Origin: Nereocystis luetkeana
Taxonomy: Eukaryota > Sar > Phaeophyceae > Laminariales > Laminariaceae
DNA length: 64,000 bases
Assembly: GCA_031213475.1 (NCBI GenBank)
Contig: JARUPZ010000002.1
Coordinates: forward strand, 12,224,951 to 12,288,950
Direction: 5' to 3'
Shown: piece after piece, positions 2,865 through 62,605 of the stretch
How the letters are laid out: each line of letters opens with the position of its first letter
Numbering within the stretch: the first letter of the stretch is position 1
Position numbers and translations under genes: made by a program
The notes under the pieces: generated by a model
The model's input: the letters and a program-made list of their open reading frames with translations, nothing else
Database searches by the model: none
What the model was told of the DNA's origin: nothing

Positions 2865-5800
2865 CTTGCGAAAACGAGCGACAGACAGGAGGACAGACGC
2901 CGCAGCGGAAGATTATGACGGGAAAAAAAAAAAACAACTACCAAAAAAGGACGGGGGGCGAGAGGTGACTTCTCTCTCTTCATGTTTTTTCTTTTTCTTC
3001 CCTTTCCCTTTTTGTTTGTTCCGTTTGGTCATCCTGTTTTTTTCGGTGTGTCCCTGTATCGCCTTTTCCCGTTTTGTCTTTGTTTTTTGCTCGCTTCCTT
3101 GTTCTCTGGTTGGTGGCGGATTCTGTCTTTTTAAGCTCTTAGCTCGATGACACACCCTCCCGCGTTGTTTGCGAGTCTGCGTAGTAACTTGATTGATAGT
3201 CTGAGGTATTCGATCTGTTGCGGTTGTTTATTACGGGGGACCATAGTTAATAGGACCAAATACTGTTAGTAAAAATGGTTAAATATATAGGTTTTTATGT
3301 ATACCATACGCCCTATTAACTATGGTCCCCCGCAATAGTATGTATGTTGTAGTTTTATTATCACTTTTTTCAATGTTTTCCTCCTGAGGCATTTATTTGC
3401 CTGTGAGGTGGTGTTCTACTCCAGAGATAATGGAGCCTGTCCTGTGACGAAGGACTGCATTGCGGCGATGAGTTAATCCATCTAGAACCGCAGTCCCGTT
3501 TTGGGGACAGACCAGTCCAATTTCAAGTGTTTTATCCCCAAAACGGGACTGCGGTCCTAAAGGGGTTAATTCCAGGACAACATCAACAACATGTACCCTG
3601 CTTTACCGCAGCTGCTGTGAATTGTGCCTGGATCCTCTGTAGTTACGCGGATTTGCTTTGGAGCTATTGTCGTAATATTAATAGTCGTTGTTTCATCATA
3701 CGTATATATTATACCAGATACAATACAAGATCACAGCGCGGATATTAAGCTAATGTATCAAACGAGTAGTATGATACGCGTACGAACGGTATGTAGGAGA
3801 TTTTTTGTTTTCCAGATCAAAACGGCGAAGTGCGAGGAACCTGAAGTTTTTTTTGTGTTTGGGACGGGGGAGAAGGGAACCGACTGGAAGGGAGTGGTAA
3901 CGAGAGCACGTGTGAAGGAACGGGCCGATTGGGATAAGGCGATGGGGCGCCCATGGAGAACGGCAGCAGGATGGCAGACGGAGACCCAGGACCGGCGCGC
4001 ACACCATCACGAAAGCAGCGCAGCAGTCATCGTTTTTTTCTGAAATTTGTTTTTTACGAGGCAGTAGTAGGATGTACCTGTTACTTTATACTCACTGGCC
4101 TTTGTAGTGTGGGCGAGTTGTATAACTGGTACTCTTTCTAGTCATGTCCCCCGTGGCTTGGTAGGTGGTTCGCGTGCCTATCAAGATCAATTTCGTGGGT
4201 TCGAGTCTCACCGAGTGCATGCTCGTGGGGACTTGTTCTTGCATAAAAATCGATTGGCGGAAAGCGCGAGAGCGCGAGATAGCTACGTTCAATGAAAATC
4301 GACGAGCAGTGGGAATGCTGAACCCTACGCGCTACAAAACAAAAAGCACGTACCGGGGGTAGGAGGGACGACACCTGTGACCACGGCTTGTCCAGAAGAT
4401 CGCTGAGGGTAAAACCTCCTACGAGTTTGGCTGGAAACTAAGAGTCACGATGAAAAAAAAAAAAAAAAAATGGGGAATGACCCCCGCAATTTGTCAGGGA
4501 CGTGGTCTCATAGCTGTGCTGCATCTTTTGTCAGTCCGGGAAGACATGGAGATCGTTGATATTCGTATTATGGTGGTTTTGGTTCGATTGCTCTTTTTCA
4601 CTACATGTCCGCGACCCCAGACAGCAGGTATGTTCCTCTCTGTCTTCACGTCTACCGTGGGTTTCATACGGTGTAAGCAGCACTCCAGACAGAAACGACT
4701 GTACTCAGTAGCCACGAGTCCGTTAGTTGTGAGAACGGGGGGGACTCTATGCTGCAGTTGAGAGGATACCCGCGGCCATGCTACTGATTGTAGCATGCTT
4801 GGTCTCGTGTACTTTTAAGTGGAAAGCGTGCTTCCCGGCCGAATTTGAACTTTTATGGTTTTCCGGGTCTTCCTCCGAGGGCTCCAGCACCTTATTAATA
4901 GTGTAAACCACAGACTCCTTGATTCGATCGCAGTTGACGTGAGAACAACAATACATCTTATACGATACAAAAGCAGAAAATATGATGCGATACGATACGA
5001 GTACCAGAAGAATTTTGACTGTTATGGTTTTCCGGATCTTCCTACGAGGGCTCCAGCACCTTATTAATAGTGGAACCACGGACTCCTTGATTCGATCGTA
5101 GTTGACGTGAGAACAACAATACATACATATACGATACAAAAGCAGAGAAAATGATACGATACGATACGAGTGCCAGAAGTAGATGGCAACATATCGCAAA
5201 AAAAGTAACCGACGGTCACCATTAATACCAGGTACCAATGCTGTTACTCGTACGGTACAGCAGTACGAGTATCCTGTTTGCCTTTCGATTTACCGCTTGC
5301 AGTTAGCGTTCCACAGGTCGGCTTGATATCTTTGCGCTCAGACACTGCATCAGGCTATCCGCACACATGATGAACAAGGCGCCTATCACCTACGCCGGGA
5401 CGGTGCTGTTCTGGTCGTTGTTGTGATGCTGCGGTTGTCTTCCTCTATCCAACGACGTCCCGTCCAGAACGCAGAACACCCAGCAGTCGGAATCCATTCA
5501 GGAACACCCTCTGGGTACGCAGATGTCCTTGGTTATTGGGATACATTCGCAGCTATTATTAGTGTACTCGTACGTCTATGTACCGTACCGTATATACCGC
5601 CGTATTCGACACACCGAACACACAACAACGAGCAGAGAACTGACCAGCAAAACAAACAGGGGGAGGGGGGAGGTTCTCACCTGATACTTGTCCGTGTTCC
5701 TGTCACGGACCTCTTGAAGCACGGATAGCCCCAGGTCGAAGACCTTGACGTGCCCCAAGGCACACAGCCCGATATTAGTCGGCTTCAAGTCACTGGGGAG

Positions 5801-8800
5801 GGAACGACACAAACAAAATACACAAAAAAACAGGCACAACAAAGAAACGGCAGGCAGAAACAAGCGGGAGGAGATATGGAATTCAGCGAGTTGTTGTTGT
5901 TGTTGCTGTTCTCACAATAACTCATCGCCACAATACAATGCAGTCCGTGGTCGCAGGCAGGACAGGCTCCAATAACTCTGGAGTGGAAGAAAAGGCAAAA
6001 ACAAAAAAGACAAGCATTCGCATTCCACCACTAAGGACACCAGGGAAGCAAATACGTCTTTTGTGTCAATGTGTTTAATCAAGTGGAACTGGAAACCCGT
6101 CGGTACCACTGTATCAATAGCTACCGGTAGGAGGTTTTACCCTCAGCGATCTTCTGGACAGGCCGTGGTCACAGGTGTCGTCCCTTCTCCCCAAAGGTAC
6201 GTGCCTTCATTTTTATCACATAGGGTTCAGCATTCCCACTGCTATTCGATTTTTCTCGAATGCTGTTACTAATAACTCACGCTCTCCTCGCGCTTTCTTG
6301 TAAAAAACTAATTAATACTGTACGAGAGAAAAAGTCCCGATGATACCTGGTATGATTTTTCACTCGGTGACACTACCAGTAGAACCTTCGTACCAAATTG
6401 ATCTTCGCAGGCACGCGGACCACCCACGAATCCCCCGGGGATGCTACAGCTTTTTTTTTGTACTATAAATATTAACATTTGATGTGACTACAGCAGTATA
6501 TTTCTTCTCTGGGGTGTTCTTCCGCTACAGTTTTGGAAGCCAGCCGTGTGACCAACGGACTCAATATTTTGGACATGAGTTATTAGTGGGACAAAGCACA
6601 AAAAAAAAACTCGTATAATATCAGTACTACTAATACTATTAATAGTACTGCTGTGTACCGTGTACCAAGGCACCTACAGCAGTCAGTAGTTTCACCAGCA
6701 TACCAGGTATTGATATTGAGAGTATGTACCTGGTACCTGGTACCTGGTATCAGTTAATCGTTAACCCCTTTGGGACTGCAGCCCCGTTTTGGGGACAAAC
6801 TACTTGAAAATTGAGTGGATTGTCCCAAAACGGGAGGGATCAAGCGCAAAAAAACAAACAAGAAAGGAAGACAAAGGAAGACCACGTTCGAACCAGCTGC
6901 ACCAGTTGGCGGCACGAGTAGCATAGGCATGTTCTACTTCCTATTAATAGTCGGCCTGGTGCCTTGCTACCCTGTCTGCCATCTCCTTCCTACTTTCGTC
7001 CTCCGCAGTTTCCTTTCTACCCCTCCTGTTACCCCCCCTACTCGCATTCCCTTGGTCGGGTTTTCTGTACTCCTCCTGTTACCCCCCCTCCCCCCATTCC
7101 CTTGGACACCACCCACGGCGGATGCGCAGCGCTGCCTACTCAGCTCAGCCTCATCCTCGTGCCACCTCACCATTAACCGTTCGGCTGCTTCGAACCGTTC
7201 GGCTGCTTCGAGGAACCCCCGGTACCACTTCCCCGCCTTTTCATGTTTTTAGCTGCAGTGGACCACAGCGCGGTCTCAACTCCAAACACCAAGGGGGCTT
7301 AGAATAATCAGCACGAACACCGGGTGTACTGATGAAGCTGGGTAGAAACGACGATTTAATGTGAAGACAGCACACACAACCGTAGTGTACTGTTCATTAA
7401 TAGTAGTATTAATAATACTAAAATAGTATTAATAGTAATAGTATCGACGCGTGCCGCGCACAACACCGTATTTCCAACCAAACGACCCCACGGCACACCA
7501 ACCAACCAGGTGTCGGTTAGGGATATAGTGCTCGAGTTCCGGGTCGGGGTGGTGGCCGCCGTTGGCCGCCGTTAGTCGCAAGCGAAAAAAATCGCGCCGT
7601 CGGAAAAATAAAATTCGCCACGTGCAACATACGAAGAACTAGCGGAGCTTCGCCGCGGCGGGCTGACGCCCGCCTGCGGTTTCGCGCATATAGGGAGGAC
7701 AGGAAGGAGCCTTCAGAAAAAAACATGGTTTTACCTCCACCACTGTTGTAGAATGCCTCTCCCATCTGCATACCAGGTACGATACGTACTCGTACATACG
7801 ACGAGTACGGGTAATGCTATGTGCTACCTATGGCACGCGCTCTACATGTAGTTTTGCAAAAAAGTGCTCGTACGAAGAGATCTATATATATCTATATGTT
7901 GGCAGAAGAAAAAGCACGAAAATTTGAACTCACAGCTGACGTGCTTTTGTAGTTTTTTATTAAACATACCAGATAACTACTACCGGGTACGTACGTATTA
8001 ATACTCCAGAGTATTATACATACCAGGTATCATACGAGTGTGCCGCGAATTAAAAAGTTTGTTGACGTGGGCGGTTATTATTGGGTTCTTTGTTTGACCA
8101 TCTGGTAACGGCAAAGAGGGGGATTAATTGAATGATACCAACACATAAGCAGTAAAGCCAACGCCGCACACATAAAAAGGGACTGCTGTTCAAACATGTC
8201 GGGAGACAGCACTTTTACCCCTTGACAAGACACCGTCGAGGCAGTTGTCTCGACACAGCCTTGACAGCCAAAACCCGGGGACGCTAAGAAAAATCCGCGT
8301 TGCTCCGGAAATGCCTGAAAATATTGTCGAAGGTAGTGTGATTTCCTGCATTTTTACTTTTTTCGGCATTTATTTTGATACATTTTCGAGTTCGATCTGC
8401 ATAGAATCTCAATATTTTAAAATAAGGCCCATCTACGTAGGTAAAACGAGTAAAACAGCAGCACCTGAACCGTGAACATAAAATTAGGGGTTTCCACATA
8501 TCTATGTAATGAGGGCCTTACTGCCAAGGGGCGTAGGGGACATTTGTCTACGTAGACAGATGCAGTTTGCCTTGACAGAGAGCCTTGACAGCCGGACAGC
8601 TTGACATTGACATGCCTCCTGACATCTTTGCTGACTGTTTGACGTACTGCGAAGGGGGGTTGTGCTTCAACAGCAGTAAAAAACAGGACCTTCGTTCGTG
8701 TCAAAACATACGTATACGAGGGAAGAAAAGGCTGAAATCTTCTCGCGATAAAAATGAAGGTACGTACCGTAGCGGGAAGGGGGTAGAGGAGCCTGCTATG

Positions 8801-12365: not shown

Positions 12366-12543
12366 ATAACAAAAGCGCGGCCGCCGCAGTAGTATCACAC
12401 GACAGATCAAAACTGTGATGTGACGCTCTCATTAAAAGACTACCAGGTATACCAGGTACCTGGTACTACTTAATACTGCAACCAACATCCCCGTCCATCT
12501 CATCCACCAGAAAACGACCACAATCCCCCCTAAGAGAAGCATC

Positions 12544-12652
12544 TATTACGGGGGACCATAGTTAATAGGACCAAATATTGCTAGTAGAAATGGTTAAATA
12601 TATAGGTTTTTATGTACACCACAGGTCCTATTAACTATGGTCCCCCGTAATA
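12544..12652. mobile_element. MITE-1 copy
   Basis: Intact 109-bp copy, TATTACGGGGGACC to GGTCCCCCGTAATA. It interrupts a host repeat that reads GAAGCATC before it and CCAAAACCCGCTGTCCATCA after it; a relative lies at 14815-14860, giving a TA target duplication. Confidence 0.9.
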
Positions 12653-14321: not shown

Positions 14322-14438
14322 GCTATACTACTATTACGGGGGACCATAGTTAATAGGACCTATGGTATACATAAAAACCTATATATTTAACCATTTTTAG
14401 TAACAATATTTGGTCCTATTAACTATGGTCCCCCGTAA

Positions 14439-15689: not shown

Positions 15690-17655
15690 TTTGTTGGACA
15701 GTCGTCATGACTGTCTTCGAAGCAGCAGGCCTCACGGTTTAGGAAAAGAAGACAGAGACAATTCTCCTACAAACACCAGACCAGACAGCCCTCGCACCAT
15801 CGCTCATCATCGAAGCACCAGGCCAGAGGTGTAAGCAGGCGACCCAGTTCTTATACCTAGGCGGAATTATCCGCGAAAAACGCTGACCTCTCGCTCGAAA
15901 TCAACCGACGGATCCGTCTCACGCGATCATGCCTCAAACGGTTCGGCCCGGAGTTGTATGATAGGACGACCGCCCCCGTTAGCCTTGAAGTCCGAATGCT
16001 GAAGGCCGAGGTGATTGAGACCCTGCTGTACGGGTGTGTGACGTGGACCCTCAGAGCGGAACACTTTGCCAAGCTTAGAACGGCTCTCCACCAAGTCCTG
16101 TTGCGAGTCATTGGCTTCCAGCGCCGACTTCGTACTGACCATGCCACCCTCTCGTACGCGAAGGCCCTCAAGATGACACGTTGCGAGAGTATCGAAACGA
16201 CCATTCGTAAACGGCGGCTCTTCTTTGCGGGGGGCGTGGCACGGCAAAGCAAGGAGCGATTACCCAGTCTGGTAATGTTCGGGACGATAGCTGGTGGGGA
16301 GAACCCGAGACCAGGCGGACAGTGTAAGACTTGGCATAGATGCATAGTCGAAGACCTTAGGGAGTTCCGAGCCACCGAAGGGTCCACGGAAGTAGCCCCC
16401 TTGGTGTTTGGAGTTGAGACCGCGTTGTGGTCCACTGCAGCCAAAAAGGTGGGGAAGTGGTACCGGGGGGTCCTCGAAGCAGCCGAACGGTTCATGGTGA
16501 GGTGGCACGAGGCTGAGTCTGAGATGAGTATAGGCAGGGCCGCGCATCCGCCGTAGATGGTGTCCAAGGGAATGAGGGGGGGGGGGCAACAGGAGAAGTG
16601 GCAGAAAGCCCGACCAAGGGAATGTGGAGAGGGGGGTGAGCAGGAGGAGTACAAGGGAAACTGCGGTGGACGAAAGTAGGAAGGAGATGGCAGACAGGTT
16701 AGCAAGGCACCAGCCCAACTAGGAAGTAGAGCATGACTATACTACTACTGTAGTGCTACCAACCGGTGCAGCTGGTTCGAACGTAGTCTTCCCTTGTCTT
16801 CTCTACCGGTATTTGTTTTGTTTTTTTCTTGGGCTGATTCTCCGTGATTTTCATTTTATATATTTCTCTTCCTTTTTTCGATTGATGTGTTGTGTGTGTG
16901 TTCTTTTTAAACCGTTCTTTCTACCCGTCGACATCCAGCACAACCAGTGTCCGTGCCGATTCTCCAATCCTATTAATAGAAGAGATACAAGTTCTGTGGT
17001 CACAAAGCTACGCCACAGAGATAATACGTTGCCACGTGTGCAGTAAGCACTGCAGTGGGCAATGCAAAAGCCATGCATGTCATCATACTAGAAACGACAG
17101 GCACGACATACACAATCTATGAAATAGAGAAATGATAAGCCGTATTGAAGGAGTCGTGTGGCGAGGGTGGATGACGAACCTGTTCTGCTTGTTTCGTATT
17201 GTCTGACGCCAAGGGGCTGGGTATAGTTGACGAACGCAGGGCGGAAACGGCAGTCAGGGTAGCAAGGTACAAGGCGGACTAGCAGGGAGAACCTGGCTAT
17301 ACTACTCGTACCACAAACTGCTGCCGCTACTTAACTTGGAGGGTGAATTGGGCTTTGGTCTGCCTGTTGTTTCCCAGTTGTCATTTTTCCCTCGGTTCTT
17401 TGTCTTACTCTGTTTACAAGTAGTGGTGTTTTTGTTCTTTCTTCTTGTTCCCAGCTCGTTCTTTTTCAAGTTTTGCCACCTCGCCTGCGGGGGGGGGGTA
17501 CGACAGTTTGTGTCTTCTATTTTTTCGTTTTTTTTTCATCTTTCCTTTTTTTGTTTTCCGCTTTCGATTTGTTTTTGTTTTCTGTTTGATTGTCCTTTCG
17601 TTTCTCTATTTCATATAATGTGTATGTAGAAATAATGGTTCAATATGAAGAACAC
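15690..17655 (+). mobile_element. LINE-1, degenerate, with nested antisense LINE-1 tail
   Basis: 15690-16555 parallels the RT-ORF C-terminal two thirds but has a stop near 15740 and frame breaks. The 3' region runs on to about 16880. It is interrupted by an antisense LINE-1 terminus (about 16885-17130) and resumes at GATAAGCCGTATTGAAGGAG to an ACACACAC end. The antisense insert carries CTATTAATAG at 16970; a CTACTGTAG insertion sits at 16745. Confidence 0.82.
16885..17130 (-). mobile_element. LINE-1 3' tail nested in LINE-1
   Basis: Antisense terminus (GTGTGTGTTC through CATCATACTAGAAACGACA and ATGAAATAG) between CGATTGAT and GATAAGCC of the host copy. It shows a family member inserting into another member of the same family. 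Confidence 0.8.
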
Positions 17656-17720: not shown

Positions 17721-19320
17721 CCTAGGACAGATCATATCCCATTTATTTCCGGGATCTAGATCTTCTAGGGCTGATAGGTCCCTGATCTACAGGGATCTGC
17801 GGGATCTAGATCATGTTTGCTGTATAGGATCTGTGCAATTTAGATCCTATGTACACGTTAGCCTGGGTGGCATCTATCTGTCTGTATGATCTAGATCTTA
17901 TGTACATGTTTCTGTGTGTGGGATATATATGATCTACGTAGATCTTATACACATGTTTTCCCGGGCATGATCTGTGTGATCTGCCTGATCTGCACATATT
18001 TGACCGGTGAGATGCATCTGCGAGATCTAGATCATATATGCCTGGAGGGATCTGCATGATATAGATCTTACACACATGTTTCGGTGGGTGAGCTCTGCAT
18101 GATGTAGATCATACATACATGTTTCGCCAGGTAGGATCTGCAGATCTGCGTGATCTGCACACATGTTTCAGAAGAGGGGATCTGTGTGATCTAAATCTTA
18201 CATACATGTTTCGCCAGGTGGGATCTGTATGATCTAGATCTTGCATACATGTTTTGCCGAGTAGGATCTGTGTCATCTACATCATCATCTGTACATGTTT
18301 CGCCAGGTGTTCGCCAGGTTGGATCTATCTGGATGATCTGGATGATCTGCACATGTTTGCCATGTGGAATCTGTATGATCTGCATGATCTGCCAAATTGT
18401 ACTCGCAAATGAAGATGTACATTTTTGTTTATGTTGGCTCGCGGGTGATTATATGCGTTGGCTCATCATGTACATCGGGGCCGTTGTATACGTACGAGAT
18501 TTGACGTACATTGACGACATCGCAGCCCACGATGGTGGCGGCGGCTAGCAGCTCAAGCTCCCCCCCATCAACCACACAGCCACAGCTGCACAAGCGCGCC
18601 GTCGCTTACAACCACGTACGGCATGACAACTGTCGGGGGCGGCAGCTCTGATAGAGGCACTGGGGCAGCAGATGATGTCGGCAGCGGGCCGGAAGTGGGT
18701 TCCTCGGCGGATCCCGGAGTCTATATGATCTAGATCTTACGCACACGTTTGCCCGGGCGGGATCTGTATGATCTAGATCTTACACACACGTTTGCACGGG
18801 GGGGATCTGTTTGATCAAGATCTTACATACATGTTTCGCCAGGTGGGATCAGCATGATGTGCGGGATCTGCACATGTGCCACCAGATGGGGTCTGTATGA
18901 TCTAGATATTTCATACATGTTTGCCGGGGTAAGATCTGTATGATCTGCCTGATCTGCACATGTTGTTTGCCTGGCGGGATATGTATGATCTGCGAGATCT
19001 AGAACATATATGCCCGGAGGGATCTGTATGATCTAGATCTTACATACATGTTTCGGTGGGTGGGATCTGTATGAAATTTAGATCATACATGTTTCGCCAG
19101 GTGGGATCTGCAGATCTGCGTGATCTGCACATGTTTCAGAAGGTGGGATCTGTATGATCTGCCTGAACTACATATATATGTTTGCCGGATGGGATCTGTG
19201 TGATCTGCATGATCTACACATGTGTCGCCGGGTGGGATCTGTATGATCTAGATCTTGTGCACAACTTTTACGTATCTGTGAAAAAGGATCTAGATGATCT
19301 AGATCGTGATCTGTCCTAGG
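17721..19320. repeat. GATC-rich minisatellite bounded by inverted repeats
   Basis: Degenerate units of about 40-50 bp, typically GGGATCTGTATGATCTAGAT followed by a TTACATACATGTTTCGCCAGG-like block, fill 17740-18410 and 18715-19320. A non-repetitive stretch (18411-18714) separates the two arrays. The block starts with CCTAGGACAGATC (17721-17733) and ends with its exact reverse complement (19308-19320). Open frames across it are repeat artefacts. Confidence 0.85.
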
Positions 19321-19644: not shown

Positions 19645-20098
19645 TATTACGGGGCACCATCGCCCCGGTGGCTCAAGTGGTTAACCTCGAAATCTACTTG
19701 TTGTGTTTGAGTCCTGGGTTCGAGCCCCAGGTGGGTCGGACTTTTGACTTTATTTGCAAAAATAAAAATAAAAGGATTCAATTGTTGAGAGCGCCTTGCA
19801 GCGTGGGTAGGTACAATTCGATGTGAGTCGACGAGGGAAGAAGCGGCTGAAATATGCTCGCGATAAAAAAGAAGGCACGTACCGTAGCGGGAAGGGGGGA
19901 GAAGAGCCTGCTATGTGACCCCGGATCTGAGTTACGAGTGGGAAGGAGAAAGAGAAGAAAATGGGCGAAGATAATAAAAGGGATGAGCAAGAAGAAAAAA
20001 AAAAAAAAAAATAGGCCCAAATATTATTCGGAAAAATAGCGAAATATATTGGTTTTTGTGTGTACCGTAGGTCCAATTTGATATGGTCCCCCGTAATA
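19645..20098. mobile_element. MITE-1 copy split by SINE-A
   Basis: The left end TATTACGGGGCACCAT (19645-19660) and the remaining body from about 20012 to CCCCCGTAATA (20098) flank a SINE-A. A few MITE bases at the junction are missing. Confidence 0.85.
19661..20011 (+). mobile_element. SINE-A nested in MITE-1
   Basis: CGCCCCGGTGGCTCAAGTGG head, B box GGGTTCGAGCCCC, full body and A-tail. It carries a small insertion in the tRNA-like loop (TTGTGTTTGAG). The copy must postdate the MITE it interrupts. Confidence 0.9.
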
Positions 20099-20115: not shown

Positions 20116-20224
20116 TATTACGGGGGACCATAGTTAATAGGACCAAATTTTGTTAGTAAAAATGTTTAAATATATAGGTTTTTATGTATACCACAGGTCC
20201 TATTAACTATGGTCCCCCGTAATA
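20116..20224. mobile_element. MITE-1 copy
   Basis: Intact 109-bp copy only 18 bp from the previous, SINE-split copy. TA at both ends. Confidence 0.9.
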
Positions 20225-23039: not shown

Positions 23040-23690
23040 ATGATAATAATAACTCATCGCCACAATATAATGCAGTCCGTGGTCGCAGAACAGGCTCCAA
23101 TAACTCTGGAGTGGAAGAAATACCTCAAGTAAAACAGAGGCAAAAAACAGAAAACAAGCATACGCACTCCACCACTGCGGACACCAGGGAAGCAAAAAGG
23201 AGACTATTAATAGCAGACAACAACCTAAAACAGAAGATGAAGCGAAGCAAAAAAAACAAAACAAAACAAAAACAGAAGCAGATAGCAAAAAACGCAAAAA
23301 AGGCAAAACGGACCATACTAACAAGGACACAAAGAGGTACAAACGGGAATGAAAGAAAAATGAAAAAAAGAAGAGACAAAAAAGCGATAATCACGGGCGG
23401 GGGGGAAAGAAAATACGAAAGGCAGGCACTGGAGCATACAGACACGCAAAGTTGCCCAGGTGGCACCATGCTAGTTACTTGGGTCCCAAAGAAGGGAGTG
23501 CATCATGACGATGATGGCCATAACCAGGCTTCAGTCTGTTGGGCAGACCGCCCCCCCCCCTTCCCCCCCCCATTCCCCCTCGTCCCCCTTTCGCCCCCCC
23601 CCTCTTCCCTGCCATTCTGCGCACTCGCGTTGGTGTCAACGGCTATGATCGTGGTTGCAGCTATTATATGCCGTTCTGCCGATGCCTCCT
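23040..23690 (-). mobile_element. LINE-2 3' region, 5'-truncated copy
   Basis: Minus-strand tail parallel to 48610-49080: CATCATGACGATGATGGCCA, TTGCCCAGGTGGCACCA, an A-rich block, ACACCAGGGAAGCAAAAAGG and CTCTGGAGTGGAAGAAATAC. CTATTAATAG at 23214 interrupts what reads CTAACAG in the neighbouring copy at 24004. The long Lys/Arg-rich plus-strand frame here is its antisense. Confidence 0.8.
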
Positions 23691-25575: not shown

Positions 25576-25581
25576 TAAAGT

Positions 25582-25683
25582 TTATCCCTTTTGGGACCGT
25601 AGTCCCGTTTTGGGACAAACTACTCAGAATTTGACTATTAATAGTTTGTCCCCCAAACGGGACTGTGGTTCTAAAGGGGTTAA
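25582..25683. mobile_element. MITE-2 copy, tandem left member
   Basis: Arms on TAGTCCCGTTTTGGGACAAA and its inverse, ending TAAAGGGGTTAA. It carries CTATTAATAG at 25635 in the loop. Its right TTAA (25680-25683) is also the left TTAA of the next copy. Confidence 0.85.
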
Positions 25684-25776
25684 CCCTTTTAGGACTGCAG
25701 TCCCATTTTGAGGGCAAATCTCGCAAATTCCAAGCACTTTGTCTCCCAAACGGGACTGCGGTTCTAAAAGGGTTAA
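25680..25776. mobile_element. MITE-2 copy, tandem right member
   Basis: TTAACCCTTTTAGGACTGCA to CTAAAAGGGTTAA. Sharing one TTAA with its neighbour suggests the second element inserted into a TTAA created by the first. Confidence 0.88.
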
Positions 25777-25890: not shown

Positions 25891-25999
25891 TATTACGGGG
25901 GACCACAGTTAATAGGACCTGTGGTATACATAAAAACCTATATATTTAACCATTTCTACTAACAATATTTGGGACTTTTAACTATGGTCCCCCGTCATA
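25891..25999. mobile_element. MITE-1 copy
   Basis: 109-bp copy with one substitution in the right terminus (CCCCCGTCATA). Confidence 0.88.
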
Positions 26000-32523: not shown

Positions 32524-32581
32524 CCTACGTATAAGATGATTCCATTTGGCATCTGACAAGACGGGCAGCTTACCACCTTAT

Positions 32582-32668
32582 TCCTTTTAGAACCGCAGTC
32601 CCGTTTTGGGGACAAACCACTCAAATTTCAAGCAGTTTGTCCCCACAACGGGACTGCGGTTCTAAAAA
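32582..32668. mobile_element. MITE-2 copy
   Basis: AGAACCGCAGTCCCGTTTTG to GGGACTGCGGTTCTAAAA. Terminal TTAA is not preserved. It is followed within about 30 bp by another LINE-1 copy. Confidence 0.8.
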
Positions 32669-32700
32669 TTATCCGAGAAAATGGTTGGGGGTTGGACTGC

Positions 32701-36029: not shown

Positions 36030-36290
36030 CATTGTGAAGGTCTTTGTCCGTTGGGCTATAAAGGTAAAAGGTTAACCAATCGCCTACCCAATCTAAGCCT
36101 CATAACACCCCCCCCCCCGGAACGGACCGGATTTTACGGGTCGACGCGCCACCACACGCGGTTCCATTTTCTGGGGATCCAGAAGCATTTTTCAGATTCT
36201 TGACAGGAGGAAACTCACTTTTCTTTTAAAAAGCGATTTCATGGTCTCTCACGACCAACGACTCATGGTCCTGCCGCCGTCGACGCCACT
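36030..36290 (-). repeat. tRNA-related repeat family C, another copy
   Basis: Shares GTAAAAGGTTAACCAATCGC, GGAACGGACCGG, GGGGATCCAGAA, TTCAGATTCTTGACA and AAAAAGCGATTT with 28279-28490. It abuts the LTR at 36291. Confidence 0.6.
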
Positions 36291-36563
36291 TTTTAAGATC
36301 ACGGAGAGCGAGACACTTTGTATCCCTGGACAGGTCTGCTTACGGCACTCGTTGGTACTCACGTTGATGTTCGCTTAGAGATAGAAGAGTCACCTTATTC
36401 CTTTCGTGCACGACGGAGACTGAGACCACGCTAGTAGTGCCTCTCTGGAAAACCCCTGGTTTTCCACCTAAGATGCGCCTTCCAAGTACTACAAATGCAA
36501 TCCCAGTGCCAGAACCCAGGTAATTACCGGGCTTTCAACCTCATACAAAGCAGTATCATAACA
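36291..36563 (-). mobile_element. Solo LTR of the small LTR-element family
   Basis: Reverse-orientation match to the 276-bp LTRs: TTTTAAGATCACGGAGAGCG at one end and CAGTATCATAACA at the other. No second LTR in the same orientation is nearby, so it is probably a solo LTR. Confidence 0.78.
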
Positions 36564-37139
36564 GCAGCCGGGGGATATTGCGGAACAAGTGATACAAAGA
36601 GGAGGCAGGTGGAAATCCGGGATTGATAGTCGGGTCATTCTTGCATCGGAGAGTTTTTCCCATTATTTCCATGGTTTTTTCGCGCAAATTTTCAATCTTC
36701 CACATTTTCCTGATTTTCTTTCCAAATACGTGCAATTTAACAAACCTGATTTTTTTGCTTCTAGAGAATTTCACGAATAGTGACTGAACGCCTCTGTATC
36801 TTGGCACATATCTACAATTATAAAAAACCCTTCGATAAGGATGTACACTCGCAACAACACGTGTGATGATACTGCTTTGTATCAGGTAGAAAGCCCGGTA
36901 ATTACCTGGGTTCTGGCACTGGGATCGTATTTATAGTACTTGGAAGGCGTATCTTAGATGGAAAACCAGGGGTTTTCCGGAGAGGCACGAGCGTGGTCTC
37001 AGTCTCCGTCGTACACGAAAGGAATAAAGTAGCTCTTCTATCTCTAAGCGAACATCAACGTGAGTACCAACGAGTGCCGGCTTAATAGGCAGACCTGTCC
37101 AGGGATACAAGGTGTCCCGCTCTCCGTGATCTTAACATG

Positions 37140-37222
37140 TGGCGTCGTCGGAAGGACTCGAACATGCGCGTGAAATCACAATGGGTTTCCAATCCATTCC
37201 CTTAACCACTCGGGCACGTCGA
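37140..37222 (-). other. tRNA-Ser(GGA)-complementary segment in primer-binding position
   Basis: Read on the minus strand this is a nearly complete tRNA-Ser with CCA: acceptor GTCGACG/CGACGAC (one mismatch), D-arm CCCGAGTGGTTAAGGG, anticodon loop TTGGAAA (GGA), a class-II variable arm GTGATTTCAC, T-loop TTCGAGT, then G and CCA. The T stem has two mismatches. It starts 2 nt after the 5' LTR, where TGGCGTCGTCGGAAGGAC is the expected primer-binding site. I read it as an extended PBS or captured primer tRNA, not a working tRNA gene: no terminator T-run follows. Confidence 0.6.
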
Positions 37223-37225
37223 CTG

Positions 37226-38735: not shown

Positions 38736-38845
38736 TAATTTCGGGGGACCGTAGTAAATAGAACCTACGGTGAACACAAAAACCTATATATTTCCCTATT
38801 TTTACTGAAAATATTTGGTCCTATTTACTATGGTCCCCCGTAATA
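38736..38845. mobile_element. MITE-1 copy, left end diverged
   Basis: Left end TAATTTCGGGGGACC, right end GGTCCCCCGTAATA, with the usual AT-rich middle (CCTATATATTT). Confidence 0.82.
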
Positions 38846-39389: not shown

Positions 39390-40170
39390 ACTGCTCCTGC
39401 ACAAAACTGTTGTGTGCAGGGAGTGTGTCGTCAATTTTAACCTTACACGTCGGCCCAGACCAAGCCAATCCCAGGCCTGGCCCTAACCCTAACCCTAACC
39501 CTAACCCTACCCCTAACGCTAAGCTCAACCCTTTCGGGAGCTCGAGGTCGGCAGGGGCAGCACGCTCTCCGCCGCGTGTTTTGGTGGCGTTTTCCCAAAA
39601 AAAAAGCCGGGCGGCCGAAAGACCCGCCTAGACCAATATAAGACCCGCACCCTGCACAAAGTTTTGTCCAAAATGCTCCTGCACATAAGATAGGTCGAGT
39701 CGAGGGAGAGGGGTTTTGCCGCGAAATTGTGAGGGATTTTTCCCCCGATGGTGATATTATTTCCGGCTTCGGCTCGCGGCGGCCACCACCCCGACTCGGA
39801 ACTCTCACCATAGATCACCCTACCCCTAACCAGAGGCCTAAAACTATGGGCGCCCGCAGTTGGCAAACATGATGTTGAGAAAAATAGGCTCAGATCGGCA
39901 CGAACAATGAGAAACTTGGGCTGAGAAACACAGCTCAACAGTGGGACCAATTCTCAATCTTATACAAGATAGTTAGATCAAGGTCGGAAAAAAGACGTTA
40001 ATCCTGGACACCAACAAAGTGACGTTTCTTAGCACCGGGCGCCCAACTGCTGTACGTGGTACTTGGTTCTTATTTGGTTTGCCAGCTGGTCGCTGTGCTT
40101 GGAAACGGCTCTATTTGTTGATCTGGGACATCTATCTACGGAAGTTCGCCTGCACGGGCAGCTCTACGCG
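39390..40170. repeat. Dispersed repeat X-Y, copy 1 (X inverted), with telomere-like array
   Basis: Y part (about 39695-40170) parallels 59385-59640: GTGAGGGATTTTT, CGACTCGGAACTCT, CCCTAACCAGAGG, GCCAGCTGGTCG. X part (39390-39690) matches 59090-59385 only as its reverse complement. X contains CCCTAACCCTAACCCTAACC (about 39481-39512) with degenerate units after it. The X borders are inverted CTCCTGCACA/TGTGCAGGAG words. Confidence 0.7.
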
Positions 40171-40303: not shown

Positions 40304-40747
40304 TATTACGGGGGACCATATTAAATAGGACCTGTAGCCGGTCGCCCCGGTGGTTCAAGTGGTTAACCTCGAATTCTTCTTGTGTGAGTCCTGGGTTCGA
40401 GCCTCAGGTGGGTCGGACTTTGACTTTATTATTTGCAAAAATAAAAATAAAAGGATTCAATTGTTGAGAGCGCCTTGCAGCGTGGGTAGGCACAATTCGA
40501 TGCGAGTCGACGAGGGAAGAAAAGGCTGAAATCTTCTCGCGATAAAAATGAAGGCACGTACCGTAGCGGGAAGGGGGGAGAAGAGCCTGCTATGTGACCC
40601 CGGATCTGAGTTACGAGTTGGAAGGAGAGAGAAGAAGATGTGCGAAGATAATGAATGGGATGAGAAGAAAAAAAAAAAAAAAAACGGTACACACAAAAAC
40701 CTCTATATTTCGCTTTTTTACGAACCATATTTGATCCTATTTACTAT
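40304..40747. mobile_element. MITE-1 copy split by SINE-A, right end lost
   Basis: The left part TATTACGGGGGACCATATTA (40304-40338) and the rest from about 40685 (ACACACAAAAACC, TTTGATCCTATTTACTATG) flank a SINE-A. The final GGTCCCCCGTAATA is missing and another LINE-1 tail follows. Confidence 0.8.
40339..40684 (+). mobile_element. SINE-A nested in MITE-1 (second case)
   Basis: CCGGTCGCCCCGGTGGTTCA head, B box GGGTTCGAGCCTC, full body and A-rich tail. Confidence 0.9.
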
Positions 40748-41035
40748 GTGTGTGTTCCTTCACATTGTCTTTCTACCCGTCGACATCCAGCACAACCAGT
40801 GTCCGTGCCGATTCTTCAATCCTAGAAGATATACAAGTTCTGTGGTCACAAAGCTACGCCACAGAGATACTACGTTGCCACGTATGCAGTGAGCACAACA
40901 GTGGGCAATGCAATGCCATGTCATCATACTAGATACGACAGGCCCGACAAACACATTCTATGAAATAGAGACACGAAGGGAAACAATCAAAGGGAAAACA
41001 AAAGCAAAGAAGACAAATCGAAAGAGAAAATGGAC
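40748..41035 (-). mobile_element. LINE-1 3' region fragment
   Basis: TGTGTGTTCCTTCACATTGT, CATCCAGCACAACCAGTGTC, ATCCTAGAAGATATACAAGT, CACTGTG-type and CATGTCATCATACTAGATAC blocks, then an A-rich stretch. The CTAG site is empty here. Confidence 0.82.
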
Positions 41036-41119
41036 CCCCGTAATAGAGAGATGCACAAACAAGCTCTGTGGTCACACAACTACGACTCAAGAGATGCGAC
41101 AGCAGCGTAGTATGCAAAG

Positions 41120-44884: not shown

Positions 44885-45011
44885 TATTACGGGGGAGCAT
44901 AGCAACCAGGACAAAATATACGCTTGGTAAAAATCCTGGACTACGTACGTTGGTTTTTATATAGGTTTTTGTGTGTATGATGGGTCCTGATTACTACGGC
45001 ACCCCGTAATA
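44885..45011. mobile_element. MITE-1, diverged 127-bp variant
   Basis: TATTACGGGGGAGCATAGCA to GGCACCCCGTAATA, with a longer, different centre. An older copy or a subfamily. Confidence 0.8.
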
Positions 45012-48239: not shown

Positions 48240-49090
48240 GCTGGTTGGGGGTAAGGGTTACTCCGGAGGACAGGAGTGGGACTGGATGAGGTACCTTGAG
48301 GAGGACCTCAAGGAGTGCGGCATCAAGCTCGAAGGGTGGCGCGAGGCAGCACAGAAAGCCGGCAGATGGTTCCGACGGGTCGAGGAAGGGGCGGAGGCCT
48401 TCATGCGGAAATGGCATACAGATGAGAAGGAGGCATCGGCAGAACGGCATAGAATAGCTGCAACCACGACCACAGCCGTTGACGCCAACGCGAGTGTGCA
48501 GAATGGCAGGGAAGAGGGGGGGGGCGAAAGGGCGACGAGGGGGAATGGCGGGGGGGGGGAGGGGAGGCAGTCTGCCCAACAGACTGAAGCCTGGGTATGG
48601 CCATCATCGTCATGATGCACTCCTTTCTTTGGGACCCAAGTAACTAGCATGGTGCCATCTGGGCAACTTTGCGTGTCTGTATGCTCCAGTGCCTGCCTTT
48701 GGTATTTTCTTTCCCCCCCGCCCGTGATTATCGCTTTTTTGTCCCTTCTTTTTTTTCATTTTTCTTTCATTCCCGTTTGTACCTCTTTGTGTCTTTGTTA
48801 GTATGGTCCGTTTTGCCTTTTTTTTTGCGTTTTGCTATCTGCGTCTGTTTTAGTTTTGTTTTTGTTTTTGTTTTGCTTAGCTTCATCTTCTTTTTTTAGG
48901 TTTTTGTCTGCTATTAATAGTCTCCTTTTTGCTTCCCTGGTGTCCGCAGTGGTGGAGTGCGTATGCTTGTTTTTTTTTTGTTTTTTTTGCCTCTGTTTTT
49001 ACTTGAGGTATTTCTTCCATTCCAGAGTTATTGGAGCCTGTCCTGCGACCACGGACTGCATTGAATTGTGAGTTAATGTGAGGACAACAG
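48240..49090 (+). mobile_element. LINE-2 copy with RT-ORF C-terminal remnant
   Basis: The plus frame 48286-48615 reads YLEEDLKECGIKLEGWREA, GRWFRRVEEGAEAFMRKWH and then a Gly/Arg-rich tail. The 3' region runs through CATCATGATGCACTCC, a T-rich block, CTATTAATAG (48911) and GTTAATGTGAGGACAACAGC. Catalytic domains are absent (5'-truncated). Confidence 0.75.
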
Positions 49091-49224
49091 CGAGAACCCT
49101 CTTTTTCATCAAGCGTCTATATCAGGACAAAGAGCTTGCAAGCAAGGACAAGTAGGAAGCATCATCATCGTGCCCCCGCCCGCGTGTCCCGCAGCTATTA
49201 ATAGCTCCCTACTCGTTCGTTCTT

Positions 49225-49372: not shown

Positions 49373-49678
49373 ATATTGACCCGTAGCAAAGCAACCCGTG
49401 CTACTTTTCATGAGGCCGATGCAGGGGACGGACGTCATCATCCATTAATTTCGACGCTTTTTCCCCCTCTCAAAAGTCTCCAAGGCCAAAGAATGGGGAT
49501 ATAGAAAGCTACGCACGCGTAACGATTCAACTAACTGACGAAGTAACTGGTTATTGCTGCTGCTGCTGCTGCTGCGGCTGTGCGTATTTCTTCTTGGCGA
49601 GGGAAGGTGCCAGTATATACACATTCAACAGTTTTATTTAGCGAAAATATCTTTTGCTGGCGGGGGGAATGGGGGGTG

Positions 49679-49775
49679 TTAACCCTTTTAGGACCCCAGT
49701 CCCGTTTTGGGGACAAATCACTTGAAATTAGACTGGTTTGCCCCCAAATCGGGACTGCGGTGCTAAAGGTGTTAA
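49679..49775. mobile_element. MITE-2 copy
   Basis: TTAACCCTTTTAGGACCCCA to GGGACTGCGGTGCTAAAGGTG then TTAA. Both TTAA ends are present. Confidence 0.88.
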
Positions 49776-57729: not shown

Positions 57730-57838
57730 GATTACGGGGGACCATAGTAAATAGGACCAAATATTGTTACTAAAAATCGGGAAATAGACAGGTTTCTGTG
57801 TGTACCGTAGGTCCTATTAACTATGGTCCCCCGTAATA
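57730..57838. mobile_element. MITE-1 copy
   Basis: GATTACGGGGGACCATAGTA to GGTCCCCCGTAATA, 109 bp. Confidence 0.9.
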
Positions 57839-59981: not shown

Positions 59982-60083
59982 TATTACGGGGGACCATTGG
60001 AGTAAATAGGACCTACTGTACGCACAAAAACTCATATTTTTCCCCTTTTCTACCAACGTTTGGTCCTATGGTCCCCCGTTAAA
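59982..60083. mobile_element. MITE-1 copy, diverged
   Basis: TATTACGGGGGACCATTGGA to GGTCCCCCGTTAA. The right terminus is altered. Confidence 0.8.
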
Positions 60084-60990: not shown

Positions 60991-62171
60991 TCTTCACATT
61001 AAACCGTTCTTTCTACCCGTCGACATCCAGCACAACCAGTGTCCGTGCCGATTCTTCCATCCTAGAAGAGATACAAGTTCTGTGGTCACAAAGCTACGCC
61101 ACAGAGATACTACATTGCCACGTGTGCAGTGTGAACTGCAGTGGGCAATGCAAAGCCATGTCATCATACTAGATACGACAGGCACGACATACGCAATCTA
61201 TGAAGTAGTGAAACGAAAAGAAACAATCAAAGAGAAAACAAAAACAAGGTAGACAAGTCGAAAAAGAAAAAGAAGAAAAATGAAAGCAAAATCTAAGAGA
61301 AACAATCTGTCGTGCCCCCCCCCCCGCAGGCGAGGTGGCCTACACTTGAAAAAGAACGAGCTGGAAAAAAGAAGAAATAACAAAAAACACCACTGCTTGT
61401 GAACAGAGTAAGACAAAGAACCAAGGAGAAAGTAACAAGGAAAAATAACAAAGGGGAAATAACAGGCAGACCAAAGCCCAAAGCACCTTCTAGGTGGCGG
61501 CAGCAGCTTGTGGTACGAGTAGTATAGCCAGGTTCTCCCTGCTAATCCGCCTGGTACCTTGCTACCCAGACTGCCGTCTCCGCCCTGCGTTCGTCAACTA
61601 TGCCCAGCCCCTTGGCGTCAGACAATACGAGCCGAGCAGAGCAGGTTCGTCTTCCAACCACGCCACACGGCTCCTTGAGTACGGCTTATCAATCAGAAAA
61701 GGAAGAGGAAGAGAAAAAATGAAATGAAAATCACGGAGAGTCAGCGCAAGAAAGAAAAAAAAAAAAAACTAAAAGAGAAGACAAGGGAAGACCACGTTCG
61801 AGCCAGCTGCACCAGTTGGTAGCACTAGTAGTATGGTCATATTCTACTTCCTAGTCGACTTGGTGCCTTGCTACCCTGTCTGCCATCTCCTTCCTACTTT
61901 CGTCTACCGCCGTTTCCCTTCTACCCCTCCTGTTCCCCCCCCTCTCCGCATTCACTCGGTCGGGCTTTATGCCACTTCTCCTGTTGCCCCCTCCCCCCCC
62001 GTTCCTTTGGGCACCATCCACGGCGGATGCGCGGCGCTGTCTACTCATCTCAGCCTCAGCCTCGTGCCACCTCACCATGAACCGTTCGGCTGCTTCAAGG
62101 ATCCCCCGGTACCACTTCCCCACCTTTTTGGCTGCAGTGGACCACAACGCGGTCTCAACTCCAAACACCAA
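60982..62171 (-). mobile_element. LINE-1, 5'-truncated, antisense
   Basis: Minus-strand copy with the complete 3' region and the RT-ORF C-terminus (frame open from 62171 down to the stop near 61851). The three diagnostic CTAG sites (61063, 61825, 61851) are all in the empty state, making it a good reference. Confidence 0.88.
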
Positions 62172-62492: not shown

Positions 62493-62605
62493 TATTGCGG
62501 GGGATTTAAGTAAATCCGACCAAATATTTATTGGTACGAAAATAGGGAAAATATACGTTTTTATGTGTGTGCCGTAGGTCCTAATTACTACAGTCCCCCG
62601 TAATA
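62493..62605. mobile_element. MITE-1 copy, diverged
   Basis: TATTGCGGGGGATTTAAGTA to AGTCCCCCGTAATA with a typical AT-rich centre. Confidence 0.82.

Follow-up and report, generated by a model that had tools for sequence, protein, structure and literature searches.

Tc1/mariner transposons such as Sleeping Beauty, ISY100 and Ppmar2 insert at TA, duplicate this TA and leave a short footprint on excision, with cuts placed 2-3 nt inside their 5' ends (cited sections of PMC7827188, PMC2170065 and PMC9632168). Stowaway-type miniature inverted-repeat transposable elements (MITEs) of grasses, which are moved by Tc1/mariner transposases, leave footprints in which short fragments of the two ends remain between the TAs (e.g., TACTCC...AGTA; PMC1925063, in the section cited). 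In brown algae, Mariner-Tc1 MITEs such as TcMar-N1_Ec32 are described for Ectocarpus (17 families with 11,912 copies; PMC12477816), and the main text of that paper contains neither the word 'footprint' nor the word 'excision'. Here, we analyze a stretch of 64,000 nt of the Nereocystis luetkeana genome (C2:12224951-12288950, 48.6% GC, referred to as the window), taken from an assembly of 465,085,209 bases in 1,987 contigs. The assembly size and the GC content of the window agree with the values given for three kelps (511-548 Mb, 49-50% GC; PMC10498591). The window harbors a family of short elements, MITE-1, as well as copies of a ten-letter palindrome, CTATTAATAG, with the core TATTAATA. A previous reading of the window's letters (the sequence-only reading) had proposed that the palindrome at 16970-16979 is the scar of an excised MITE-1. 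Three states at one homologous site, shared flanks and the frequency of the word support this claim, to which we assign a probability of roughly 0.93; the explanation as a whole, with its mechanism kept at its own level of certainty, we hold only slightly less firmly.

Compared to these systems, MITE-1 is, like Stowaway, short, TA-flanked, non-coding and bounded by inverted repeats, but it has other termini, and while the footprints described for Stowaway and Osmar5 vary (pieces of 1-4 bp), TTAA dominates in this genome. With Tc1/mariner elements it shares the TA target, the TA duplication and a short footprint; in contrast to their usual footprint, which in the cited descriptions equals the overhang of one end, the MITE-1 scar is palindromic, and neither end alone could supply its letters. 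The Ectocarpus MITEs resemble MITE-1 by description, i.e., they are brown algal and mostly non-autonomous. The kind of trace (a Tc1/mariner-like footprint) is known; what is unusual is that one two-ended palindrome dominates and that it is so abundant. No report of such a scar was found in the literature searched (open-licence PubMed Central only).

The site at 16970 lies in the tail of a long interspersed nuclear element (LINE-1), and here all three states, i.e., empty, occupied and scarred, are found, as the sequence-only reading had stated. Six window copies are empty and read CTAG (61063, 40823, 32440, 34288, 14182 and 15448), one carries CTATTAATAG (16971), one is occupied by MITE-1 (40303), and the state of another (41229) cannot be called owing to its divergence. 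The scarred copy thus shows TA replaced by TATTAATA, a 6-bp gain compared to the six empty paralogues. The CTAG formerly placed at 61063 is present, with its first letter at 61062 and with CCATCC instead of CAATCC as its left flank. The occupied copy spans 40306-41043 on the forward strand and reads CCTA/TTACGGGGGACC...GGACCCCCGTAA/TAG (slashes mark the junctions). Both junctions are readable: beside the left one, the only one noticed before, the right junction CCCCCGTAA/TAGAGAGATGCAC is found at 41035 (within 41032-41046). A short interspersed nuclear element (SINE) and a LINE tail are nested inside this MITE-1, for which the profile hidden Markov model reports two pieces (40306-40332 and 40684-40748); despite these later landings, the occupied state is complete. 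Joining its flanks minus one TA gives a sequence that aligns at CTAG with the empty copies. The comparison of CTA[MITE-1]TAG with CTAG thus reveals a duplication of the TA target.

We also screened the whole genome for the LINE-1 tail site using the pattern TCAATCCTA-N{0,16}-GAAGAGATACA, whose length is exceeded by whole MITE insertions. It matches 2,700 times (1,329 on the forward and 1,371 on the reverse strand). Among the 100 matches listed, 97 are empty (CTAG), while one each reads CTATTAATAG, CTATTTAATAG and CTATTATCAATAGTAG, i.e., the inserts are TTAA, TTTAA and 12 bases long, respectively. The 12-base insert may be read as one scar inside another, and all three inserts among the matches listed look like the TTAA scar or a variant of it.

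The same gain recurs elsewhere. In the body of LINE-1, CTATTAATAG at 6941-6950 shows an exact 6-bp gain compared to 31649, 61852, 33494, 16721 and 13393. In the tail of LINE-2, the copy at 23204-23213 shows it compared to 24006. Its counterpart at 48911-48920, in opposite orientation within a 93% identical copy, is best read as one event with 23204 that was inherited or copied; further scarred copies of this LINE-2 site are present in L013 and in L025. The three exact gains claimed beforehand were reproduced (16971 vs. six copies, 6942 vs. five, 23205 and likewise 48912 vs. 24006), with the coordinate 23214 corrected to 23204. At 25635-25644 the word lies in a fold-back repeat and represents a 6-bp gain relative to copies reading TG or TA, while other fold-back copies align with gaps of 4-5. 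This fold-back family, characterized by GTCCCGTTTTGGGGACAAAC arms, occurs at 3472-3569, 25577-25776, 32577-32674 and 49678-49775. Finally, TATTAATA at 4893-4900, repeated at 5062-5069 by a tandem duplication, shows a 6-bp gain compared to 11547 (which reads TT). In total, five independent window loci show an exact 6-bp gain with identical letters each time. The other 6-bp gains catalogued in the window are different words, one of which, ACGGTT, comes up four times at a single LINE position. Two further copies of CTATTAATAG have no usable window paralogue (6636-6645) or none at all (49195-49204).

With regard to frequency, CTATTAATAG occurs seven times in the window (6636, 6941, 16970, 23204, 25635, 48911 and 49195), compared to a chance level of 0.09 in 100 dinucleotide shuffles of the whole window and of 0.05 in 200 shuffles inside 250-base blocks (maximum 1 in both). 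Genome-wide we count 22,282 copies but only 267 of the reversed word, which is 83-fold rarer. The scar reading had been made dependent on the decamer being commoner than composition predicts, and it is so by about 80-fold. The core TATTAATA is observed 26 times in the window, compared to 1.41 in the block shuffles (maximum 5) and to Markov expectations of 2.1, 8.1 and 15.6 based on 4-mers, 5-mers and 6-mers, respectively; the higher-order expectations are raised because they are built from pieces of the word itself. A further sample of this genome, 200 kb in total, was drawn from C2:100001-1250000 as 20 spaced stretches of 10 kb and does not represent the whole genome. It contains 70 copies of TATTAATA vs. 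3 of the reversed word; the density of CTATTAATAG is 125 per Mb there and about 48 per Mb in the whole genome. The same sample holds 22 MITE-1 segments, 19 of them of at least 80 bp, i.e., scars outnumber MITE-1 elements in the sequence examined. A combined set of 278,095 bases (the window, part of L001, and L002-L025; 278 kb in the following) comprises 103 copies of TATTAATA. Here, TTAA between CTA and TAG is observed 37 times where 0.29 are expected, and TATTAATATTAATA, a scar adjoining a scar, is found three times.

MITE-1 itself measures 105 bp in the profile model and has terminal inverted repeats of about 27 bp that start with TTACGGGGGACC. It is probably a non-autonomous cut-and-paste element, which duplicates TA on insertion and has TAC-TA-GTA as its preferred target. 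We find 12 loci in the window and three in L001, and the earlier statement that MITE-1 is flanked by TA holds on both sides for 11 of these 15; the other four show a changed flank or a shifted boundary. Beside the occupied LINE-1 site, the forward-strand copies of the window are located at 3231-3335 (nhmmer, TA on both sides), 12546-12650 (perfect terminal inverted repeats, with 29/29 positions complementary over 12544-12652 including the TAs), 19647-20096 (split by a SINE), 20118-20222, 44887-45009 (diverged), 57732-57836 (left TA reads GA) and 62495-62603 (diverged). Reverse-strand copies are found at 14334-14438 (in a TAC repeat), 25893-25997, 38739-38843 (one TA reads AA) and 59984-60082 (diverged). 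An autonomous relative would carry paired TTACGGGG ends.

How could two ends give rise to one palindrome? Both ends of MITE-1 would contribute to the scar because TTAA can be read neither from TTAC nor from GTAA alone. The sequence-only reading had assumed that 2 bp of each end are left behind. The product, TTAA, is right; the split is not fixed by it, since T+TAA, TT+AA and TTA+A yield the identical scar and are hence indistinguishable. Likewise, its comparison with Tc1/mariner scars holds insofar as TA plus terminal letters are seen, while the plain one-end footprint of 2-3 nt is not. We propose that a TA-specific transposase would excise MITE-1 in such a way that both flanks keep a few of its terminal letters as 3' overhangs. 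An overhang of 3 nt, TTA, would explain the scar most simply; the 3' overhangs of Sleeping Beauty have this length, and its footprint is described as identical to the overhang (PMC7827188, section cited). The two TTA overhangs would pair in a staggered manner via their self-complementary terminal TA; one base would then be filled in per side, and ligation would yield TTAA. Less exact joining may account for the minor forms TTTAA and TTAAA (TATTTAATA, observed 9 times vs. 1.5 expected, and TATTAAATA, 4 vs. 1.35; 278 kb) as well as for the LINE copy reading CTATTTAATAG. A plain overlay of the 3-nt overhangs, with a T-T mismatch and TTA or TAA as footprint, was rejected, i.e., TATTATA (38 observed vs. 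25.9 expected) and TATAATA (30 vs. 24.6) show no comparable excess in 278 kb. For this exact overhang model we see even odds.

The same scar could also result from a 2-nt stagger, as in ISY100, which is cut 2 nt inside (PMC2170065, section cited). Here, unpaired TT overhangs would be joined with full fill-in, and the product TT+AA is identical; such a repair requires, however, that unpairable ends are joined with almost no loss of letters. The one-end products TATTTA (102 observed vs. 57.7 expected) and TAAATA (80 vs. 53.4) show a mild excess in 278 kb but are neutral on this question because TATATA is in excess as well (211 vs. 89.3). We consider the 2-nt variant possible but rather doubtful.

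We further have to ask whether the scars stem from MITE-1 or from another TA-specific family with TTA... ends. The excision of MITE-1 is only inferred, and the surplus of scars over elements (70 vs. 22 in the 200-kb sample) would be in line with another source. To relate scar and element, we compared the letters outward of the TA. At positions -3, -2 and -1, MITE-1 ends show T, A and C with frequencies of.54,.65 and.57 (n=54 ends) and TATTAATA flanks show.49,.53 and.59 (n=206 half-sites, two per scar), compared to.31,.29 and.20 for the TA background. When TAC-like flanks are removed, C at -1 is still found in 20/32 MITE-1 ends and 86/138 scar half-sites (background.20). Restricted to the window, C-TA or TA-G flanks 17/24 scar loci (5062 and 48912 dropped) and 10/11 occupied loci (L001 included), compared to a background of 36%. 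Given the shared target profile and the occupied homologous site, the only one found and filled by MITE-1, the scar can be assigned to MITE-1 specifically and not just to some element that targets TA. In addition, inverted repeats flanked by TA were sought in 278 kb (arms of 16 bases with no more than 2 mismatches, spacing up to 1.2 kb). This gave 16 matches starting with TTA, and all 14 of them among the matches listed are MITE-1 ends. An autonomous parent with the same ends would count as MITE-1's own family. An origin of the scars in another family is very improbable.

Even less probable is that TATTAATA is the original target. In this case, an ACGGGGG...CCCCCGT element would insert between TATT and AATA without duplication, and the CTAG copies would be 6-bp deletions. 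The occupied junctions TATT/ACGGGGG...CCCCCGT/AATA formally fit such a pre-existing palindrome. Yet the short form prevails at the LINE sites, namely in 97 of 100 cases among the matches listed and with 5 and 6 short copies vs. one long copy each in the window. Spy-type elements insert into a fixed palindrome without target duplication, and the short CTAG form being the common state speaks against them. Two other known target types were rejected as well. piggyBac and Kolobok use a TTAA target, which is duplicated at both junctions, but the empty site is CTAG; PIF/Harbinger elements duplicate 3 bp (TNA), whereas the site with empty copies shows a two-base TA duplication. Hardly credible, finally, is that the decamer is common for another cause (a protein-binding site or microsatellite drift, as some copies in TA-rich simple sequence might suggest) and that the 6-bp gains are chance indels, given the rarity of the reversed word and five loci that gain the same letters while other 6-bp gains differ.

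Several observations weigh against MITE-1 excision as the source of the scars. The paralogue comparison in 278 kb gave an exact gain vs. at least one paralogue for 8 out of 18 evaluable TATTAATA loci, of which about 6 are independent (4893/5062 is a tandem duplication and L013/L025 represent one LINE-2 site), leaving 10 loci without an exact gain. Three of the latter have only paralogues that share the word, and seven show a gap of other size or no net gap (three of them also with sharing paralogues); the ten include 23205 and 48912, for which the window alignment did give the exact gap. Some copies of TATTAATA sit in TA-rich DNA, where paralogy is uninformative (7407, 7427), and without ten TA-rich loci the flank test of the window is weak (9/14, P 0.03). 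Only 1 of the 12 window MITE-1 loci has informative empty copies. In L016 and L021, the copy of the 16971 site is longer by 12 bases, which can be read as one scar placed in the middle TA of another only if one substitution is allowed in each copy, and the unmutated scar-in-scar 14-mer is absent from 278 kb. Furthermore, TA duplication and inverted repeats alone are insufficient proof of a Tc1/mariner element, and no match to the transposase domain PF13358 was found in the genome among 30 scored candidates.

MITE-1 excision, if correctly read from these words, is of interest since excision is normally invisible in an assembly, while here one family would leave one recognizable word and abundant LINE copies show the pre-insertion state of each site. 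Past excision could thus be counted, dated relative to host repeats and compared with the copies present, i.e., thousands of scars would record how often MITE-1 came and went. It also opens the question for brown algae of how 3' overhangs of transposons are end-joined and whether the footprint is determined by nothing but the overhang.

A second TA-bounded word is more frequent still. TACCWGGTA is found 182,395 times genome-wide vs. 1,744 times for the reversed word, and at 44 places of the window, e.g., within 6727-6749 and 12441-12465. It was first taken as unlike a scar because of its depletion in paralogue-covered window DNA (1/44, compared to 1,278/3,690 TA), a view that was reversed by exact 7-bp gains in the wider sample. 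There, 154 copies are present in 278 kb, 10 are evaluable and 5 of these show an exact 7-bp gain at TA; a second alignment rule also gives 5 exact gains, four of them at the same loci. Two gains are located inside MITE-1 copies (L014:2296, L024:2582), and 15 pairs form tandems with a shared TA (278 kb). The center is A/T rather than C/G in 44 vs. 2 cases in the window, as expected if CCAGG overhangs pair with one central A-A mismatch. The flank differs from that of the TTAA scar (C.11 at -1). The window depletion still speaks against a second scar, and so does the scan of 278 kb, which showed no element that has CCAGG at its ends. On balance, TACCWGGTA probably represents another class of footprint, for which no parent element is visible.

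Other words are weaker footprint candidates than TACCWGGTA. CGAG/CTCG (TACGAGTA/TACTCGTA) is found at 27 window places (e.g., 5245, 5264 and 51408) vs. 3.7 expected and 58 times vs. 3 for the reversed word in 200 kb, with no paralogue gain seen. CCGG occurs 12 times vs. 2, with two paralogue gains. In two MITE-1 copies (L006:5630, L017:3329), TACCGGTA stands where the same internal TA is expected, with a gain of exactly 6 bp. CAG/CTG is enriched in 200 kb (90 vs. 28.7), yet not in the window (9 vs. 9.2), and shows three paralogue gains, of which two fall on one LINE position. The genome may hold several hundred thousand footprints of several kinds (TTAA, CCWGG, perhaps CGAG/CTCG, CCGG and CAG/CTG), where each fixed word between two TAs would reflect the self-paired overhangs of one family; this generalization could equally well hold or fail. 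If true, past excisions by families both living and vanished could be read off the genome as from a log, with repeated LINEs as empty-site controls.

With regard to relatives and coding content, searches with the patterns of the MITE-1 end, LINE, SINE and fold-back repeat as well as with the LINE protein found no relative in IMG/VR. Among 19 open reading frames of the window, Pfam reports only an RVT_1 reverse transcriptase and one match below the cut-off, and a phmmer comparison of the LINE protein with solved structures finds LINE/R2 reverse transcriptases (E 4e-4 to 7.5e-4). The sole contig matched by the MITE-1 end in the contig scan is L001 (JALZVY010000069.1), titled as Phycisphaera metagenome-assembled genome (MAG) g3_MAG_00007. 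Its positions 1-2055 look eukaryotic and are probably kelp host DNA; they have 50% GC and coding stretches that are split, and they contain one CTATTAATAG and three copies of MITE-1, while the remainder is bacterial with 65% GC. The g1-g4_MAG naming is that of a kelp-blade metagenome study, the tissue assemblies of which contained a host kelp bin (PMC9238374, section cited). Most simply, JALZVY010000069.1 is a kelp-bacterium assembly chimera.

Beside these families, the window contains a satellite-like array at 17874-19269, which has a 43-bp unit rich in GATCTAGATC, and a short interstitial CCCTAA array at 39481-39532, i.e., a TTAGGG-type telomeric repeat. Rfam reports one tRNA for the window. 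A large inverted repeat at 36277-37151 is built from three pairs of arms nested in one another (66, 93 and 127 nt; 91-95% complementary) and ends at the tRNA-Ser gene located at 37140-37223.
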